DNA of 20,815 nucleotides, taken from IMG/VR virus record IMGVR_UViG_3300010354_000848, positions 1 through 20,815 of that record; one strand, written 5' to 3'. Below the pieces are notes generated by a model. That model was not told where the DNA came from, did not search any database, and saw only the letters and a list, made by a program, of their open reading frames with translations. This document shows, piece by piece, positions 11,680-20,704 of the stretch (its first letter is position 1; every line of letters starts with the position of its first letter). The translations under genes were made by a program, and so were the position numbers. The stretch is from a virus.

Positions 11680-11895
11680 TTATTTGTTTTCTTGTTTAGA
11701 TTGAGATGCGATTGCTTGCAAAAATGTGCTTAGTTTGTCATAAGCGGCACCTACACTTGACAGTTCTCCGGCCTGGAAAGCACCGCGTCTTACTGCTGCT
11801 TCTAACACCTGTTTGATATTATTAAGATCGTTTACAGTTAGTTCTGGAGTTACTGCACCATCATTACCTTCTGTCATTTGTTCTTGATTTTCCAT
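11680..11895 (-). CDS. Small conserved phage protein
   Basis: This 71-residue acidic protein has an ATG preceded by AGGAG six bases upstream, so the start is well supported. After a disordered Gln/Glu/Gly-rich first 17 residues it has a predicted helical part with LTVNDLNNIKQVLEAAVRRGAF and LSSVGAAYDKLSTFLQAI. A similar ELT..DL..I pattern followed by RGAF and VG..Y.KL is familiar to me from small proteins of cyanophages, where the function is unknown. It has no membrane segment or catalytic residues. It sits eight bases downstream of the 95-residue gene and nine upstream of the 221-residue gene in one operon. Confidence 0.7.
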   Translation of the reverse strand: MENQEQMTEGNDGAVTPELTVNDLNNIKQVLEAAVRRGAFQAGELSSVGAAYDKLSTFLQAIASQSKQENK

Positions 11896-11903
11896 TTTTT
11901 CTC

Positions 11904-12191
11904 CTATTTTTTATGTAAAAATTGGCACCCTATACTTAACATGGTAATTTCTTTAGGATCTTCTAACCCAATTACAGTTATTTGTGTAACTTTTTTTGTT
12001 GTCTTATCCAGTGTTATAGTATGCTCAATTGCATATCTACTATTTAAGTGGTAGTTAATCCATTGGTCTATTTTTTTGATATCTAAATAGCCTGTTTCTA
12101 ATTCTAAAGTAGCAAAGTGTTCTGGGATGAAGTTTAATTTCCTCAAGCCCAGAACATCTAATGGATTTAGTTCTCCTCTATTCAAACTCAT
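11904..12191 (-). CDS. Hypothetical protein, 95 residues
   Basis: The ATG at 12191 overlaps the stop of the VWA gene in an ATGA arrangement, so translation is likely coupled to the VWA gene. The protein is 95 residues long. It begins MSLNRGELNPLDVLGLRKLNF, has an acidic helical middle (HFATLELETGYLDIKKIDQWI) and ends with beta-type sequence and LHKK. I recognise no family and see no catalytic motif, signal peptide or membrane segment. Coupling to the VWA gene suggests it may act together with it, but that is inference from gene order only. Confidence 0.65.
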   Translation of the reverse strand: MSLNRGELNPLDVLGLRKLNFIPEHFATLELETGYLDIKKIDQWINYHLNSRYAIEHTITLDKTTKKVTQITVIGLEDPKEITMLSIGCQFLHKK

Positions 12192-13450
12192 TTGTAATAG
12201 GCGTACTGACCAAATGGAGGAACAATGGACTCATCGCCGTGAATAATAAACAAGGTATCACAGTAATCCTCATCACCCCAACTACCACAGGGATAGCCAT
12301 CTGTAAACATGATAAAGCGTTTTGGAGTTATACCCTCTTCTTTCATAAAATTGTAATTGGCTTCGAAATCAGTGCCTCCGCCACCTTTAATTTTATAATC
12401 TAAAAGATCGTCTTTGGTATCTCCAGTAAATTCTGCGTAATTGTAAACTTCTGTATCAAAACACCAAAGGTTAATTTTAAAGTCTCTGTATTCATCCATA
12501 ATACCCTTGACCTCACTAATGAAGTCTTTGGCTTGATGATCACCGATACTACCGCTCATATCGATGCCAACACTGATATCTATAGTTTCCTCATTCATAA
12601 GTCCAGGCAATACAGCACCGGTGTGCTGACTACGACGATTTGGACGATTAAAACTAAAGTCACTTTTGATAAGGCTTTGGATATTCATACGTAGCATTTG
12701 CCGCCAATCCATTTTAGGCTCGGTTAAGTCTTTGATCATACGCTGGATTCCTGCCGGAACTTTACCTGCACCGGCACTCTGCGCAGCGGCGATCATAGCC
12801 TCTTTGATCTCATCACGGATCTGCTGGCGTTCTGCCTTACTCAAACGAGGACGCTTGCCCTTACCAGGTTTATCGCCGTCCTCACAATCACCACCATCAT
12901 CACCGTCCTCATCGTCGAGGTGATCGTCTAACAATTCACCCAAGTCTTCCGGATGGATTTTCTCCGCCCCAGCATATAGAATGGCATAGATTTCTTCATA
13001 AGATTTTCCACGATATTTGTCATCTTGGAAGATCCTAATCCAACTTGGAACCGTGCCAATTTTTTCATCTTTAAGAATTTGGTTGGCAGCATAGTCAGCG
13101 GCAATGTTGGCTAATTTGGGATCACGACCTTCACGACGTCCCATATGATCGAAGATGTTATGTAGGACTTCATGGGCAAAGCCAAACTCGCATTCTTTTG
13201 GACTGAGTTCGTTTACAAAGCCATTATTGTAGTAGAAGTTTCTGCCATCAGTGGCTAAAGTTTGGCACCAATCGCTGGCTTCAATCATCTTCATACGAGT
13301 GGCTAAATTGCCAAAAAACGGATGACGCAGTAACAAACCTACACGAGCAGTTACCAATTTGTCAACAATTTTAGCCTGCTCTTGAGCAGTAAAAGTCTTA
13401 CCTTCCCACTTGGGCTTTGATATTTTAGAACCTTTCATCACTGAAGTCAT
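12188..13450 (-). CDS. VWA-domain protein with N-terminal putative zinc metallopeptidase (DUF2201 type)
   Basis: The start at 13450 is chosen because GGAG lies six bases upstream; a longer frame begins at 13477 without such a site. The 420-residue protein has a HEVLH zinc-binding motif (93-97, with a further His at 102) in the N-terminal half, an acidic Asp/Glu-rich linker around 174-193, and a VWA-like domain from about 288. The VWA domain has the metal-site motif DMSGS (297-301), GGGGTDF (356-362) and FTDGYP (382-387). This two-domain layout is the DUF2201 pattern, whose members often lie beside a MoxR-type ATPase. Here the ATPase is the next gene upstream. Such pairs are thought to remodel or process protein partners; the substrate is unknown. 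Confidence 0.85.
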   Translation of the reverse strand: MTSVMKGSKISKPKWEGKTFTAQEQAKIVDKLVTARVGLLLRHPFFGNLATRMKMIEASDWCQTLATDGRNFYYNNGFVNELSPKECEFGFAHEVLHNIFDHMGRREGRDPKLANIAADYAANQILKDEKIGTVPSWIRIFQDDKYRGKSYEEIYAILYAGAEKIHPEDLGELLDDHLDDEDGDDGGDCEDGDKPGKGKRPRLSKAERQQIRDEIKEAMIAAAQSAGAGKVPAGIQRMIKDLTEPKMDWRQMLRMNIQSLIKSDFSFNRPNRRSQHTGAVLPGLMNEETIDISVGIDMSGSIGDHQAKDFISEVKGIMDEYRDFKINLWCFDTEVYNYAEFTGDTKDDLLDYKIKGGGGTDFEANYNFMKEEGITPKRFIMFTDGYPCGSWGDEDYCDTLFIIHGDESIVPPFGQYAYYK

Positions 13451-13456
13451 ATATTT

Positions 13457-13460
13457 CTCC
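13457..13460 (-). promoter_or_regulatory. Shine-Dalgarno site deciding the VWA gene start
   Basis: GGAG on the minus strand stands six bases before the ATG at 13450, in the sequence read as ggagaaatatATG. The in-frame ATG at 13477 has no comparable site, so the shorter start is preferred. Confidence 0.7.
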
Positions 13461-13479
13461 GTTGTTTTACTATACACAT

Positions 13480-13508
13480 ATTATATATTCACTTTGCTTT
13501 AAGAGCAA
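13480..13508 (-). promoter_or_regulatory. Sigma70-type promoter upstream of the VWA-thyA operon
   Basis: Read on the minus strand, a perfect TATAAT -10 element (13485-13480) is preceded by TTGCTC (13508-13503) with a 17-base spacer. The -35 matches only three of six consensus bases. The predicted transcript would start near 13473 and give a leader of about 20 bases before the ATG at 13450. The site follows directly after the ATPase gene's terminator, so the VWA-to-thyA genes probably form a separate transcript. Confidence 0.55.
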
Positions 13509-13510
13509 GC

Positions 13511-13536
13511 AAAAAAGGCCCTTGCGGGCCCTTTTT
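13511..13536 (-). terminator. Rho-independent terminator after the MoxR-type ATPase gene
   Basis: On the minus strand a hairpin with a 5-pair G-C stem (GGCCC/GGGCC) and a GCAA loop is flanked by A- and T-runs and followed by six T residues. The stem has an extra base that would form a bulge. It begins within the ATPase stop codon, leaving no doubt about which gene it serves. The T-rich run on both sides means it could also work on plus-strand transcripts. Confidence 0.75.
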
Positions 13537-14617
13537 AACCTTCCATTGCTTGGATAATATACTTGCCATACTTGTCGTGGAAGCGATCGAAGTTCTTCAA
13601 TTTTGAAGCATCAAACGGTAAAGCATAGTTAGTTAAGGCAACTTTGGCACCCATAACAACTAACTCAGTTGGGAAATTATCCATCATAAAACCAAAGAAG
13701 TTATCTGCCATATTATCCCAACCTTTGACTTTCTTCTTGTCTGCCTCTTGGAGTTCATAACACATACTGATAGTCAAAGAATACATTGCCGAGATCTCTT
13801 TTACAGAGAACTCTTTTACCTTACCACTAAGGATATCTTCTGGTTTGGGCATTTGTTTGGCAACCTTACGGTGTGCCATAAACTTCACAGCAAGCCCTTC
13901 ACCTACAGCACCGGATACCAAATCAGTAAGGGTGGTGTCACTGATGTCATCATCTTCCAAAAGATCGCTTACAAATGACCACGAACGTGGAGTAGCAAAC
14001 GAGCGGCTTGCACTCTTTGGGTCAAAGTCATAGAGATCCTGTTTGGCAAAACCAACATAGCCTACAACCTGTTCATGAATACGATTGGCAGTAGCCCACT
14101 GAAGCCAATCTTCAAAGTCTACAGCAAGTTCCAAATGGATGAAACGGTTAGCCAACGGAGCAGGCATACGATAAGTTACACCCTTGTCCGCTTCACGGTT
14201 ACCAGCAGCCACAATGTCTACACCATCTGGCAAACGATACGTGCCTACACGACGGTTAAGAATGAGCTGGTAAGCGGCAGCCTGAGTAGCCGGAGCCGCA
14301 GAGTTGAGTTCATCTAAAAACAAGATAGCCTTACTATCCGGATCTGAGGGAAGCTCCGAAGGAGGAGCCCAAGTCATAGTATTGGCTTGACTGTTGTAAT
14401 ATGGGATACCTTTGATGTCAGTAGGTTCCCAAAGACTCAAACGAACGTCAATAACCTCACGATCCTGTTCAGAACCAATCTGTTTGACAATGTCTGACTT
14501 GCCAATACCTGGGGGGCCCCACATGAAGATTGGACGCTTCTTGCTCATTGCTTTACGGATAGAAGCCTTGGCACCATTTGGGGTAACAGTGCGATTTGCG
14601 GACATTTCTTTTGCCAT
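13535..14617 (-). CDS. MoxR-type AAA+ ATPase
   Basis: This 360-residue protein has Walker A GPPGIGKS (34-41), Walker B ILFLDEL (98-104), sensor-1 Asn140 in VAAGN and Arg158 in LANRF as a likely arginine finger. An AAA+ core of this kind with LSLWEPTDIKG and a QAAAYQLILNRRVG loop fits the MoxR/AAA_5 group, which uses ATP hydrolysis to remodel client proteins. The C-terminal third, past about residue 230, is a helical region without a further motif. It has its own promoter, ends in a terminator and stands directly upstream of a VWA/metallopeptidase gene, the usual partner of MoxR ATPases. The client in the phage cycle is unknown. Base composition here is clearly richer in G+C than in the plus-strand virion genes. 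Confidence 0.9.
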   Translation of the reverse strand: MAKEMSANRTVTPNGAKASIRKAMSKKRPIFMWGPPGIGKSDIVKQIGSEQDREVIDVRLSLWEPTDIKGIPYYNSQANTMTWAPPSELPSDPDSKAILFLDELNSAAPATQAAAYQLILNRRVGTYRLPDGVDIVAAGNREADKGVTYRMPAPLANRFIHLELAVDFEDWLQWATANRIHEQVVGYVGFAKQDLYDFDPKSASRSFATPRSWSFVSDLLEDDDISDTTLTDLVSGAVGEGLAVKFMAHRKVAKQMPKPEDILSGKVKEFSVKEISAMYSLTISMCYELQEADKKKVKGWDNMADNFFGFMMDNFPTELVVMGAKVALTNYALPFDASKLKNFDRFHDKYGKYIIQAMEG

Positions 14618-17530: not shown

Positions 17531-17762
17531 GTTTATATGCTGGGTTGGGAACATCTAATTCAAATATATGAATATGTGTTTGGGAACCTGTTTCTTTTAG
17601 ATATTCCATTGTTCTATTATGTTCTGCTTCTACTCTTGTTAGATAAAATCCTGTTCCTAAATAGTTTCCTGAAGTATAACCAGTAGGAGTGAAACTCATA
17701 CCATCCTGTTTTACAAGGAAATATACTTTGACAAATTCTGGAATATCTAACGGTTGTGTCAT
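17514..17762 (-). CDS. Hypothetical protein, 82 residues
   Basis: I chose the ATG at 17762, whose bases overlap the queE stop (ATGA) and which follows a GGGGG run usable as a ribosome binding site; a longer frame from 17771 adds only three residues. The 82 residues have a Tyr/Thr/Gly-rich middle (GMSFTPTGYTSGNYLGTGFY) and a VEAEHNRTMEYLKETGSQTH segment. No family is recognised. Gene order, tightly coupled between queE and the coiled-coil gene, suggests shared timing rather than a known partnership. Confidence 0.65.
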   Translation of the reverse strand: MTQPLDIPEFVKVYFLVKQDGMSFTPTGYTSGNYLGTGFYLTRVEAEHNRTMEYLKETGSQTHIHIFELDVPNPAYKHEKTT

Positions 17763-18613
17763 GTCCCCCACTCGTTCTTAAACAAGGGAACTTGTAGCCT
17801 ATCACTGTATCTTAGTCCATGTTTCATACAGGCCAATGCTACATTCTTATTATTTAGGCTGTAGACACTTTCTACACCACCGACCGGCATGAGATAGACT
17901 TCTCCCTCAAATCCAGCATCTCTGTATTCCATTGTGGCACGTAGAGCATCGTGAACATCTTGCTCTGTGGCTACTACGAACTTAAGATAGGTCCAACCGA
18001 TTTCTTCATATTCACATACTACTTCTGGTTTGATCGCTTCTTCCCATTTCTCACCGCTGGAAGGAAGTTTGGCACTGACTGAGAAGGTTATAATATTGGT
18101 ATTTGCCTCACGTTGGTTAATCCAAGCAATTAACCTACGTTTGAAATCTGGTAAGAGTTTTTGAGTTCCATTGGTCTCAAATGTGATTTCTTTTAGATCC
18201 TGCATCTTGGGGTGATCTAACAAGTCTGGATAACTACGTTGCCAACCTAACAAGGGTTCTCCGCCTGTAATTACAAGATGTTCCCTCATCCAACGCTTGT
18301 AGGGTAACATTTCCATAATAGCATCTACAATGGCATCAGTTTCCAATACAGGACTAAAGTCCTTAAATCGCGGATCCCAACTGGCATAACTATCACAACC
18401 TGAATGAACTAATGGTAAGTCTTTGTAAGTTTTAAATTCTACAATGCGGTTGGCTATTTCATTTCGTTCGTTAGATTTCTCGCCACGTGGCATACCAAAC
18501 CCGTCACAGGTAAAGTTACAACCAAATACACGTAGGAACACACTGGGTACACCCATATAGCGTCCTTCACCTTGAACACTGTAAAATAATTCTGATACTT
18601 TTAATTTTGACAT
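17759..18613 (-). CDS. queE: 7-carboxy-7-deazaguanine synthase (radical SAM, QueE type)
   Basis: The 284-residue enzyme would convert carboxy-tetrahydropterin to 7-carboxy-7-deazaguanine, an early step to preQ0, queuosine or deazaguanine-modified DNA. Family marks are SVQGEG (12-17), the cluster region starting FGCNFTC (30-36), GGEP (117-120) and ETNGT (146-150). The canonical CX3CX2C is altered: Cys32 and Cys36 are present, but the third Cys, in the CDS position typical of QueE, is Cys73, after a 36-residue gap. The start at 18613 is preferred over 18649 because AGGA lies six bases upstream and the protein then begins with the usual N-terminus. It follows a homing endonuclease gene by two bases. 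No other deazaguanine gene is in the window. Confidence 0.9.
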   Translation of the reverse strand: MSKLKVSELFYSVQGEGRYMGVPSVFLRVFGCNFTCDGFGMPRGEKSNERNEIANRIVEFKTYKDLPLVHSGCDSYASWDPRFKDFSPVLETDAIVDAIMEMLPYKRWMREHLVITGGEPLLGWQRSYPDLLDHPKMQDLKEITFETNGTQKLLPDFKRRLIAWINQREANTNIITFSVSAKLPSSGEKWEEAIKPEVVCEYEEIGWTYLKFVVATEQDVHDALRATMEYRDAGFEGEVYLMPVGGVESVYSLNNKNVALACMKHGLRYSDRLQVPLFKNEWGT

Positions 18614-18615
18614 AT

Positions 18616-19650
18616 TTATTCCTGACTGTTTATTATTTTTGCCTGCCAACCTAGATTAAAAAGTTTATTACGTCCTTTTTGACCTTTCACTAGATTTCTT
18701 AAAGAGTCATATCCTATATTTTGATCTTTACAAAATTGATGAAGTTTTCCATGTACTATATGTTTATTACCTAAAGGATCTATTATTTCCCATAATTTAC
18801 TCATCGGATGTATATAAGTTGAAGGCATTTTTTTGCCTTTGTTCCAGGAAATTATTTCACCGGATGCTATTTTATTCTTTCTAGTTAATTTCATTTTTTC
18901 TATCGATTCTTTAGAATGTTTCCATCCATTTAGTTTTTTGGTTTGAGCAGATTTTCTACCAGATTCTAAAAAGTTTCTATTTTTCCAACCTTGGCTATTA
19001 TGTCTTTTTTCTAAAAACTCTTTTTTCCAATCTTCATTTTCCCATCGAATTTTCATCAATTTTGCTTTTAATTGTTTATTATCTTCTGTCCACCAATTTT
19101 TATTTTTTTCTGACATTATTTTTTTAGTTTCTTCTGAATGGTGTTTCCCTCGCCACGGATTTTTTTCACCTAACATGTAAGCCTGCCTGTATTCTTTTGT
19201 TCTATGATTTGCTTCTTTAATTTTTTTTATAGATTCGGGCGTGTGTTTTTTTCCTTTAAATGTGCCCCCATGTTCAGCAAAATGTTTTTTCATTGCAATG
19301 ATATAGGATTCTCTTACTTTTTCATAGATTTTTGAAGATACAATGTAATTTCTTTTTTGTTTTTTATTTCCTGAACCATTAATCATTACGTGCAACGCCA
19401 TTGACATTTTATTGTGCATTTTTGGAAGCATATCCATTTTCCATAACAGCAAATGTGCTAGATAATGTTCTCTAGGATATAACTTAACTTTGTTATCAGT
19501 TGTGTCCTCGCCCCCGAGACTTATAGGGAGAATATGATGAACTTCTCCGTAAGAATTTTCTGGAAAAATTCTGTTTTTAGCAAATAAAATCAATTTTTCG
19601 TATCTAGACGAATATATGTTTGTTCTAATTCCGTTCGGCCAAGGTATCAT
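18616..19650 (-). CDS. Free-standing HNH homing endonuclease with NUMOD3 repeats
   Basis: This 344-residue protein has an HNH nuclease core at residues 38-67 (HHILPISLGGEDTTDNKVKL, then REHYLAH, with likely metal ligands His38/His39, Asn53 and His62). Repeated basic DNA-binding motifs of the NUMOD3 type follow: FKGKKHTPESIKKIKEAN (131-148), PWRGKHHSEETKKIMSEK (165-182) and WKHSKESIEKMK (243-254). The C-terminal 60 residues look like another intron-endonuclease DNA-binding module ending GWQAKII. Such enzymes spread between phage genomes by cutting uninfected alleles. The start has AGGAG seven bases upstream. The gene is very AT-rich (15 G+C in the 60 bases from 19081) compared with its neighbour queE, which supports recent arrival. 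Confidence 0.9.
   Translation of the reverse strand: MIPWPNGIRTNIYSSRYEKLILFAKNRIFPENSYGEVHHILPISLGGEDTTDNKVKLYPREHYLAHLLLWKMDMLPKMHNKMSMALHVMINGSGNKKQKRNYIVSSKIYEKVRESYIIAMKKHFAEHGGTFKGKKHTPESIKKIKEANHRTKEYRQAYMLGEKNPWRGKHHSEETKKIMSEKNKNWWTEDNKQLKAKLMKIRWENEDWKKEFLEKRHNSQGWKNRNFLESGRKSAQTKKLNGWKHSKESIEKMKLTRKNKIASGEIISWNKGKKMPSTYIHPMSKLWEIIDPLGNKHIVHGKLHQFCKDQNIGYDSLRNLVKGQKGRNKLFNLGWQAKIINSQE
18620..18623 (-). promoter_or_regulatory. Shine-Dalgarno site deciding the queE start
   Basis: The minus strand has AGGA six bases upstream of the ATG at 18613, within the last codons of the endonuclease gene. It favours the start at 18613 over an in-frame ATG at 18649, which would lie further inside the endonuclease gene. 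Confidence 0.7.
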
Positions 19651-19667: not shown

Positions 19668-19696
19668 AATATATATTATTATTTAGGATTTGTCAA
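19668..19696 (-). promoter_or_regulatory. Sigma70 promoter of the endonuclease-queE operon
   Basis: Read on the minus strand, TTGACA (19696-19691) and TATATT (19673-19668) are separated by 17 bases. The -35 is a perfect match and the -10 matches five of six. The expected start is close to the AGGAG site and the ATG at 19650. The -35 region overlaps the leader of the divergent radical SAM gene, so polymerase bound here could block ribosome-site transcription on the other strand. Confidence 0.75.
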
Positions 19697-19698
19697 AC

Positions 19699-20553
19699 AT
19701 GCAAACAACCAAAATTTTATGGAATCTTCATAGCCATTGTAGAGCAGAATGTTCATATTGCCCTGTACAATTTTGGGGAGGCCCTGAACCTAGACACATT
19801 CAAGATTATATGAATGTTCTCACAAGAATTGTTGAACATTTCAATAGTTTAGATAGAATGATTGAATGGACATTCGATGGAGGTGAACCATTGGAGATGC
19901 ACGATTTCCCTCAAATGTTGAAATATTGTAAAGAAAATAATGGTAAAATAACTTTAAATTCAAATGGTGGAAGAATATGGCTGGACTGGTGGGCGGTAGA
20001 ACCTAATATAGATCATCTTAATTTAACCTATCATTATTGGCAAAAAGAAAGTCTTATAAAATATATTTTAGATATTTTTGTTAAAAAATCAAAATCAATT
20101 AATGTTATGGTTCCTATTAGGCCTGATTTTTTCGATTGGGATATAGAAAGATGTCTAAAAATTGAGCAACAATATGGCATCGTTGTAGGAAAAAATCAAC
20201 TATATAAAGATTCTAGTCAAGTTAGAGGGTTATACGATTACACTGATGAACAATTGAGAATAATGAGAGGTGAAGAATTAGTTGAAGAAAATATCAAGCA
20301 TAAAGAAACAACATATGCTGAACGGAATGAGCAAATAGTACAAGAAAGTCCTGTATATCTAGGTAAATTGTGTAACACAGGTATAGAACGGTTGTATATC
20401 ACACATGACGGTTGGGTATCAGGAAGTGCATGTAATAATACTCATTTGGGAAATATATGGGATAATTCGTTTCAATTAAGGACATCACCTACTGTTTGTA
20501 AAATGTTAGCATGTACCAATAATGATGACCAACAAATTACAAAATTTGTTTAA
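19699..20553 (+). CDS. Radical SAM protein with SPASM/Twitch-like C-terminus
   Basis: I start at the ATG at 19699, with AGGA ten bases upstream; the frame runs from a TTG at 19690. The 284-residue protein has the radical SAM cluster motif CRAECSYC (Cys14, 18, 21; CX3CX2C), GGEP (61-64) for SAM contact, and LNSNGG. Its last 65 residues carry Cys225, Cys245, Cys267 and Cys272, with RLYITHDGWVSGSAC in between, as in SPASM or Twitch domains that bind extra iron-sulfur clusters. Members with such tails often modify peptides, proteins or nucleotides, but the substrate here is unknown. No promoter was clearly identified on this strand; a TAAATAT-like sequence sits upstream. It stands back-to-back with the endonuclease-queE operon and shares 17 bases with a convergent gene. 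Confidence 0.85.
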   Translation: MQTTKILWNLHSHCRAECSYCPVQFWGGPEPRHIQDYMNVLTRIVEHFNSLDRMIEWTFDGGEPLEMHDFPQMLKYCKENNGKITLNSNGGRIWLDWWAVEPNIDHLNLTYHYWQKESLIKYILDIFVKKSKSINVMVPIRPDFFDWDIERCLKIEQQYGIVVGKNQLYKDSSQVRGLYDYTDEQLRIMRGEELVEENIKHKETTYAERNEQIVQESPVYLGKLCNTGIERLYITHDGWVSGSACNNTHLGNIWDNSFQLRTSPTVCKMLACTNNDDQQITKFV

Positions 20554-20704
20554 ATCGTAATTCAAATGCAGAGGTAAGACAACTAAATGTTTTCATAGTA
20601 AAAGTATTAGTATAGAAAACCCATGTTTCACCATTGATGTCACGTATGTCATCTATTTCGAATAGATCTCCATTACTGCCATACCACTTACTGCCTATCT
20701 TCAT
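20537..20704 (-). CDS. Small phage protein, 55 residues
   Basis: The 55-residue frame opens with ATG and MKIGSKWYGSNGDLFEIDDI, preceded by GAGGA about seven bases upstream, a strong ribosome binding site. It continues with NGETWVFYTNTF and ends FELRFKQIL. The pattern of a short beta-rich protein, with the RDINGETWVFY segment, resembles small proteins of T4-like phages, but I cannot name it. Its 3' end overlaps the radical SAM gene by 17 bases on the opposite strand. It follows another minus-strand gene by nine bases. Confidence 0.65.
   Translation of the reverse strand: MKIGSKWYGSNGDLFEIDDIRDINGETWVFYTNTFTMKTFSCLTSAFELRFKQIL

Follow-up and report, generated by a model that had tools for sequence, protein, structure and literature searches.

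What does a radical SAM enzyme do when its gene sits head-to-head with queE in an uncultured phage? We addressed this question for a 20.8-kb IMG/VR record (20,815 nucleotides) of a freshwater-type bacterial virus, which is taken over its full length and referred to below as the window. The sequence-only reading had described a radical SAM protein encoded at 19699-20553, with the CX3CX2C and GGEP motifs and four further cysteines in its tail. This description was confirmed, and the gene displays the following features, with residues counted from the ATG at 19699:

19699 to 20553, plus strand: Twitch-class radical SAM protein of 284 amino acids, as judged from the open reading frame, Pfam and NCBIfam matches, 69 distinct relatives, a dN/dS of 0.07 and an AlphaFold2 (AF2) model with a pLDDT of 88
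19738 to 19761, plus strand: CX3CX2C motif with C14, C18 and C21, presumed ligands of the SAM-binding [4Fe-4S] cluster; invariant in 69 of 69 sequences, function assigned by superfamily homology
19879 to 19890, plus strand: GGEP motif, residues 61-64; across 40 aligned sequences G61, G62 and P64 never vary and E63 hardly does
20032 to 20043, plus strand: HYWQ (residues 112-115), just after the C-terminus of the core strand modelled at 106-110; invariant in 40 sequences
20371 to 20514, plus strand: Twitch-like tail C225-X19-C245-X21-C267-X4-C272, presumed to bind an auxiliary Fe-S cluster; cysteines invariant in 69 of 69 sequences, with C-terminal matches to SkfB and STM4011

The stop codon of this reading frame ends at 20553, and an alternative upstream start, TTG at 19690, is possible. 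Successive IMG/VR searches with a growing profile yielded 2, 6, 49 and then approximately 101 relatives, which were collapsed to 69 distinct aligned sequences. All seven presumed cluster cysteines were present in each of the 69, and an eighth, C77, in 68. Among close pairs of relatives the median dN/dS was 0.07 (21 pairs). Together, the cysteine conservation, which is far beyond chance, and the dN/dS values indicate that the radical SAM gene is real, functional and under strong purifying selection. The 40 aligned members were 42-72% identical to the window copy and shared further invariant features, namely GG.PL, NGG, W.DW.A.E, HYWQ and D277; an insert ahead of the tail, either proline-rich or charged, occurs in some of them. 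The HYWQ signature of the family may contribute active-site residues, and in the predicted structure it sits where the active site would be expected.

Relatives were found only in IMG/VR, that is, in uncultured phages. No significant match was obtained in the phage collection searched, nor in the 84,980 bacterial and archaeal genomes, which were scanned twice; all of these searches were seed-based and capped at 80 loci per scan, so that distant relatives could escape them. The suggestion that such an enzyme is unusual in a lytic phage proved too strong, since 40 matches with E≤0.001 were found in BFVD and phage radical SAM proteins also form PHROG families; what stands is that the present family is confined to one lineage. 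When 40 members were compared with curated models, none came near a cut-off, and no known house-keeping radical SAM family thus fits. As far as sequence comparison goes, the family is so far without a name in curated libraries, while related proteins, such as A0A6J5TAD7, have already been deposited without a function.

Radical SAM enzymes are defined by a partial TIM barrel with a CX3CX2C motif, or a variant of it, as the binding site for a [4Fe-4S] cluster. In line with this definition, the motif was retained in 69 of 69 sequences, the AF2 model contained the corresponding core, and all 40 aligned members matched the Pfam Radical_SAM model (PF04055; best E 6.8e-8). The window copy alone matched this model weakly, with an E of 9.6e-5 and below the Pfam gathering score. 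The AF2 model, built from 40 sequences, reached a pLDDT of 88 and a pTM of 0.85 and replaced an earlier model built from five sequences (pLDDT 65). It predicts a core of alternating strands and helices that starts at residue 2, followed by helices at residues 183-216 and a small beta-rich tail with a beta hairpin after the core.

The class of the tail was then judged from its cysteines. A SPASM domain has seven cysteines, arranged as CX9-15GX4C, CX2CX5CX3C and a final C, for two auxiliary clusters, whereas a Twitch domain is a shortened SPASM-like C-terminal region with cysteines for one auxiliary Fe-S cluster. In the phage family the four tail cysteines, C225, C245, C267 and C272, all lie within the last 60 residues; there are only four of them, their spacing is wrong for SPASM, CX2CX5CX3C is absent, and no SPASM Pfam model was matched. 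The SPASM half of the proposed "SPASM/Twitch-like tail" was accordingly ruled out. The Twitch half held: the four cysteines are kept in all 69 homologues, a beta hairpin follows the core, and the tail matches that of SkfB by profile. These cysteines would suffice for one presumed auxiliary cluster.

The overall fold was less informative. In the search against solved structures the best Z scores were obtained for BlsE (14.6), SkfB (14.5), PqqE (14.4), EpeE (14.4) and SuiB (14.3), followed by viperin-like enzymes and MoaA at 13-14; QueE was also listed, and the absence of a family from this list does not count against that family. The matches are tied (Z 13-14.6), so that the fold does not reveal the substrate. 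By sequence profile the nearest solved structures were SkfB, chiefly over its C-terminal part, YydG and QueE. Among curated models, viperin matched the first ~90 residues of all 40 members and STM4011 the last 53 residues of 32 of them.

The surroundings of the gene comprise these features:

17759 to 18613, minus strand: queE-like gene (7-carboxy-7-deazaguanine synthase), transcribed divergently from the neighbouring radical SAM gene; phrog_2076 with E 1e-51, and synteny
18616 to 19650, minus strand: HNH/NUMOD3 homing endonuclease, separating queE from its promoter-like element; profile matches, absent from this position in most relatives
19668 to 19696, minus strand: promoter-like element TTGACA-N4-CTAAATA-N6-TATATT directed toward queE; ends 2 bases before the radical SAM ATG
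20537 to 20704, minus strand: convergent gene for a 55-residue protein, overlapping the 3′ end of the radical SAM gene; 10 of 48 loci, no family match

The search for conserved neighbours gave a clear answer. In a first set of loci the radical SAM gene was head-to-head with the queE-like gene in 48 of 48 cases and was transcribed against its neighbours, and in a larger set this arrangement recurred in all 129 loci with DNA on that side; these loci lie on contig fragments of one phage lineage, and the counts are not independent. The gap between the two genes is mostly 35-75 nt in relatives. The homing endonuclease lies outside this conserved unit; its insertion is exact, between the promoter-like element (19668-19696) and the queE start codon at 18613. 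The convergent genes downstream include one for a cupin/cysteine-dioxygenase-like protein (phrog_4786; 35 of 48 loci) and one for a glycosyltransferase-like protein (41 of 48). The latter (L001 9404-10540, minus strand, and homologues) is conserved between the radical SAM and DpdA-like genes in most loci; a role in decorating bases or surfaces is conceivable.

Two further observations concern the window itself. Its QueE (17759-18613, minus strand) and related phage QueE proteins have only C35, C39 and C76 as cluster-type cysteines (C-X3-C-X36-C), and a long insert inside the radical SAM motif (GFGMPRGE...GCDSYASWDP) is common to these proteins and that of PA5oct. At 12188-14617 on the minus strand, the window encodes a MoxR-like AAA ATPase and a DUF2201 metallopeptidase/VWA protein, which are 91% and 72% identical to their counterparts in L008 and constitute an unusually conserved phage chaperone-like pair.

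The order of the genes for DNA polymerase B, a DpdA-like protein, queE, a 5′-3′ exonuclease and an AAA ATPase parallels that of the Pseudomonas jumbo phage PA5oct, in whose corresponding stretch no such radical SAM gene was found. The DpdA-like protein (453-549 residues) is 44% identical to a PA5oct protein and contains the TGT-like motifs DSGGxQ, VLQG, GWAxGG, HFLG and FDCASP, and a homologue in a Vibrio phage lies inside a queF/preQ0-transporter/que/folE cluster. By profile its link to TGT is weak (7.9% probability); high divergence is a known property of DpdA2 proteins (PMC6884629). The L001 copy is split by an in-frame stop (12027-13388 and 11848-12066, minus strand), which no other copy shows. 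The two longest contigs with the radical SAM gene, of 221 and 138 kb, carry QueE and the DpdA-like gene as well as FolE and QueD, the latter two at 29 and 42 kb in G005 and at 22 and 38 kb in G003. No QueC was detected in these two contigs, which are fragments, and the pathway as seen therefore stops at 7-carboxy-7-deazaguanine (CDG).

We subsequently asked how constant the radical SAM gene is within its lineage. Among the best 80 loci listed in a queE scan, all of the same lineage, only 9 carried it, and the DpdA-like gene was present both with and without it. Since most queE-bearing relatives lack the radical SAM gene, the core pathway does not require it. When presence was mapped onto the queE tree, at least 11 changes were needed, at least 3 of which are forced by well-supported branches. 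The radical SAM gene is thus an optional cassette in one lineage, with repeated gains or losses.

The region upstream of queE was compared in 83 non-redundant loci with enough DNA, 44 without and 39 with the radical SAM gene. FolE was encoded there in 28 of the 44 loci without the gene but in 0 of the 39 with it; the corresponding numbers were 8 and 0 for QueD and 21 and 5 for a gpt-like phosphoribosyltransferase. The same slot also carries unrelated cargo, with MazG, HIT, GMP reductase-like and MetK genes, which shows that the queE-upstream region is a general cargo slot. The presence of GMP reductase-like genes in 5 of 39 loci with the radical SAM gene versus 0 of 44 without it (p 0.02, uncorrected for many clusters) was too weak to be considered an enrichment.

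Several of these cargo genes can be placed precisely. A GMP reductase/IMP dehydrogenase-like gene is found at the 3′ end of the radical SAM gene, or close to it, in L031 (5410-6429), L036 (8869-9945) and L042 (9364-10446), on the minus strand in all three, and a MetK-like SAM synthetase gene is located beside queE in radical SAM-bearing loci (L017 1297-2397, L034 2137-3240 and L035 3615-4718, minus strand). Furthermore, five loci encode a subtilisin-like secreted protease of ~680 residues close to the radical SAM gene (e.g. L038 6206-8236, L042 11599-13644 and L043 10222-12258, minus strand).

A pattern related to the promoter-like element, TATTTAG..GTCAA on the plus strand, was present in 61 of 67 distinct upstream regions of loci with the gene and in 0 of 51 queE upstream regions of loci without it. 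The composite element also precedes folE and a few other genes, which indicates a phage promoter class that is not private to the radical SAM gene; the idea that the CTAAATA element is special to this gene was dropped for the same reason.

Against this background, we tentatively favour an accessory Twitch-class radical SAM enzyme that tailors either the 7-deazaguanine base of the phage or the precursor of this base in free form. In this view, the queE operon of a PA5oct-related lineage is headed by a divergent cassette that encodes the enzyme, for which two clusters are predicted: a [4Fe-4S] cluster that cleaves SAM and an auxiliary Fe-S cluster. FolE, QueD and QueE would provide CDG as an example of a substrate, and tailoring could take place either before or after the DpdA-like protein inserts the base into DNA. 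The 5′-deoxyadenosyl radical would either take a hydrogen atom from this small, negatively charged purine analogue or become attached to it, with the auxiliary cluster passing an electron. The substrate, the reaction, the link to DNA modification and the clusters are thus what we infer. Base tailoring is favoured because the neighbouring genes belong to the pathway, which ends at CDG as far as it was detected, because neither a precursor peptide nor an RRE was found, and because the structural relatives include nucleoside and pterin enzymes. In addition, in relatives without the gene the slot often holds FolE, QueD and gpt-like genes, and the composite element is shared between queE, where the radical SAM gene is present, and folE. 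Small-molecule enzymes, with BlsE first and MoaA, viperin and QueE among the others, appear in the fold list, although peptide enzymes tie with them. As the adjacency to queE comes from one lineage, it does not represent independent evidence for tailoring, and the mixed content of the cargo slot, the divergence from QueE described below and the structural ties with peptide enzymes speak against it. A bolder form, in which the family converts CDG, or its deoxynucleoside in DNA, to a new hypermodified base and constitutes an optional upgrade that an environmental phage lineage swaps in and out beside queE, is unlikely.

The alternative that survives best is that the gene is auxiliary cargo unrelated to the pathway, serving host metabolism or counter-defence, which simply landed in the promoter region of that operon. 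Its patchy distribution on the queE tree and the general nature of the slot would be expected of such cargo, and the radical SAM protein indeed diverges faster than the core genes, showing 42-59% identity where QueE shows 69-83%. On the other hand, the gene was never found away from queE in the 129 loci, while other cargo moves about. We consider unrelated cargo somewhat unlikely.

It is rather less probable that the enzyme modifies a host or phage protein, by epimerisation, thioether formation, oxidation or enzyme activation, in the manner of EpeE/YydG, SkfB, PqqE or anSME, with no adjoining precursor peptide. SkfB, EpeE, PqqE and SuiB are among its best structural or profile matches, and the SkfB profile match lies in the C-terminal tail. 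Nevertheless, no conserved small open reading frame that could encode a RiPP precursor was found near the gene in 48 loci, where the gene is boxed in by the divergent queE and the convergent genes. The 55-residue neighbour, which the sequence-only reading had named as one possible partner, was ruled out as precursor or partner, as its gene cluster occurs in only 10 of the 48 loci and is not always adjacent. Likewise, no Pfam match to an RRE (PqqD-like) domain was obtained for the radical SAM protein, and the first core strand, starting at residue 2, leaves no RRE-like N-terminal extension. An RRE is not universal among RiPP maturases. Both absences, of a precursor gene close by and of an RRE-like extension, argue against a standard peptide maturase.

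A third possibility, which we regard as improbable, is the synthesis of a modified nucleotide that inhibits competing phages or host enzymes, as viperin does by making ddhNTPs. The first ~90 residues of all 40 members match prokaryotic viperin models (best E 7e-9 with NCBIfam and 1.3e-10 with PADLOC pVip), and viperin structures lie within ~1 Z of the best fold match. Yet only the N-terminal half of the core is matched, and the window copy scores 30 bits, over residues 5-97 only, against a cut-off of 180. Viperin is not known to have an auxiliary cluster, in contrast to the four further invariant cysteines of the phage family. Finally, the enzyme might stand in for FolE and open the 7-deazaguanine pathway by another route, as suggested by the absence of FolE from the queE-upstream region of loci with the gene and by the GTP-using radical SAM enzyme MoaA of the same fold class. 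This is extremely improbable, and replacement of FolE or QueD is refuted in the only two contigs with the gene that are long enough, where both proteins are encoded elsewhere and FolE was moved rather than lost.

Irrespective of the substrate, these findings delineate a sharply defined phage radical SAM family with ~100 members, eight near-invariant cysteines and a fixed genomic position, to which the curated libraries searched assign neither name nor function. 7-Deazaguanine bases guard phage DNA against restriction (PMC6884629). If base tailoring proves true, radical chemistry would be an addition to the ways in which DNA bases are known to be hypermodified, and since phages with and without the gene occur naturally, its effect could be tested directly.

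Among known systems, QueE (phrog_2076) is the neighbour in every locus and is likewise a radical SAM protein. The GGEP and NG motifs of the two proteins align (hhalign 79%, 55 columns), but QueE lacks both the Twitch tail and HYWQ. An origin as a close QueE paralogue was ruled out, because only 55 core columns align, and the score with the curated QueE model TIGR03963 was 15.9 bits against a cut-off of 260. Prokaryotic viperin (pVip) is alike over the first ~90 residues, while the C-terminal half of the phage protein has no match in it. Conversely, the STM4011 family of radical SAM proteins (NF038073) matches the C-terminal 53 residues in 32 of 40 members (best E 7e-7); the window copy reaches 27 bits with this model, against a cut-off of 200, and the family name defines no function.

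SkfB (PDB 6efn) and EpeE/YydG (PDB 8ai1), which are Twitch-type RiPP enzymes, also combine a radical SAM core with a cysteine-rich C-terminal region for an auxiliary cluster. They gave the best profile matches among solved structures (E 1e-4 for SkfB and 9e-4 for YydG) and Z scores of ~14.5 in the fold search (VIA). The phage protein differs from them in its HYWQ core motif and in having no precursor peptide nearby, and is only 12-18% identical to them; furthermore, SkfB has an N-terminal RRE region, which the phage protein lacks. BlsE (PDB 7vob), a cytosylglucuronate decarboxylase that acts on a nucleoside, came out on top of both fold searches, with a Foldseek E of 5.8e-9 and a VIA Z of 14.6 (248 aligned residues), and is also a radical SAM protein with an extra C-terminal region. 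It is found in another context, its identity to the phage protein is 12-14%, and it is tied with many other structures, so that no function was deduced from this likeness.

Within phages, further radical SAM proteins are encoded near queE in the Campylobacter phages CP220 and CP21. CPT_0023 of CP220 was rejected as a relative, as its alignment is weak and covers only the N-terminal part of the core. A structural match was found in an uncultured Caudovirales protein, A0A6J5TAD7, which is annotated only as "4Fe-4S single cluster domain". It shares 25% identity with the phage radical SAM protein over the full length, with a TM-score of 0.78, and probably belongs to the same or a sister family.
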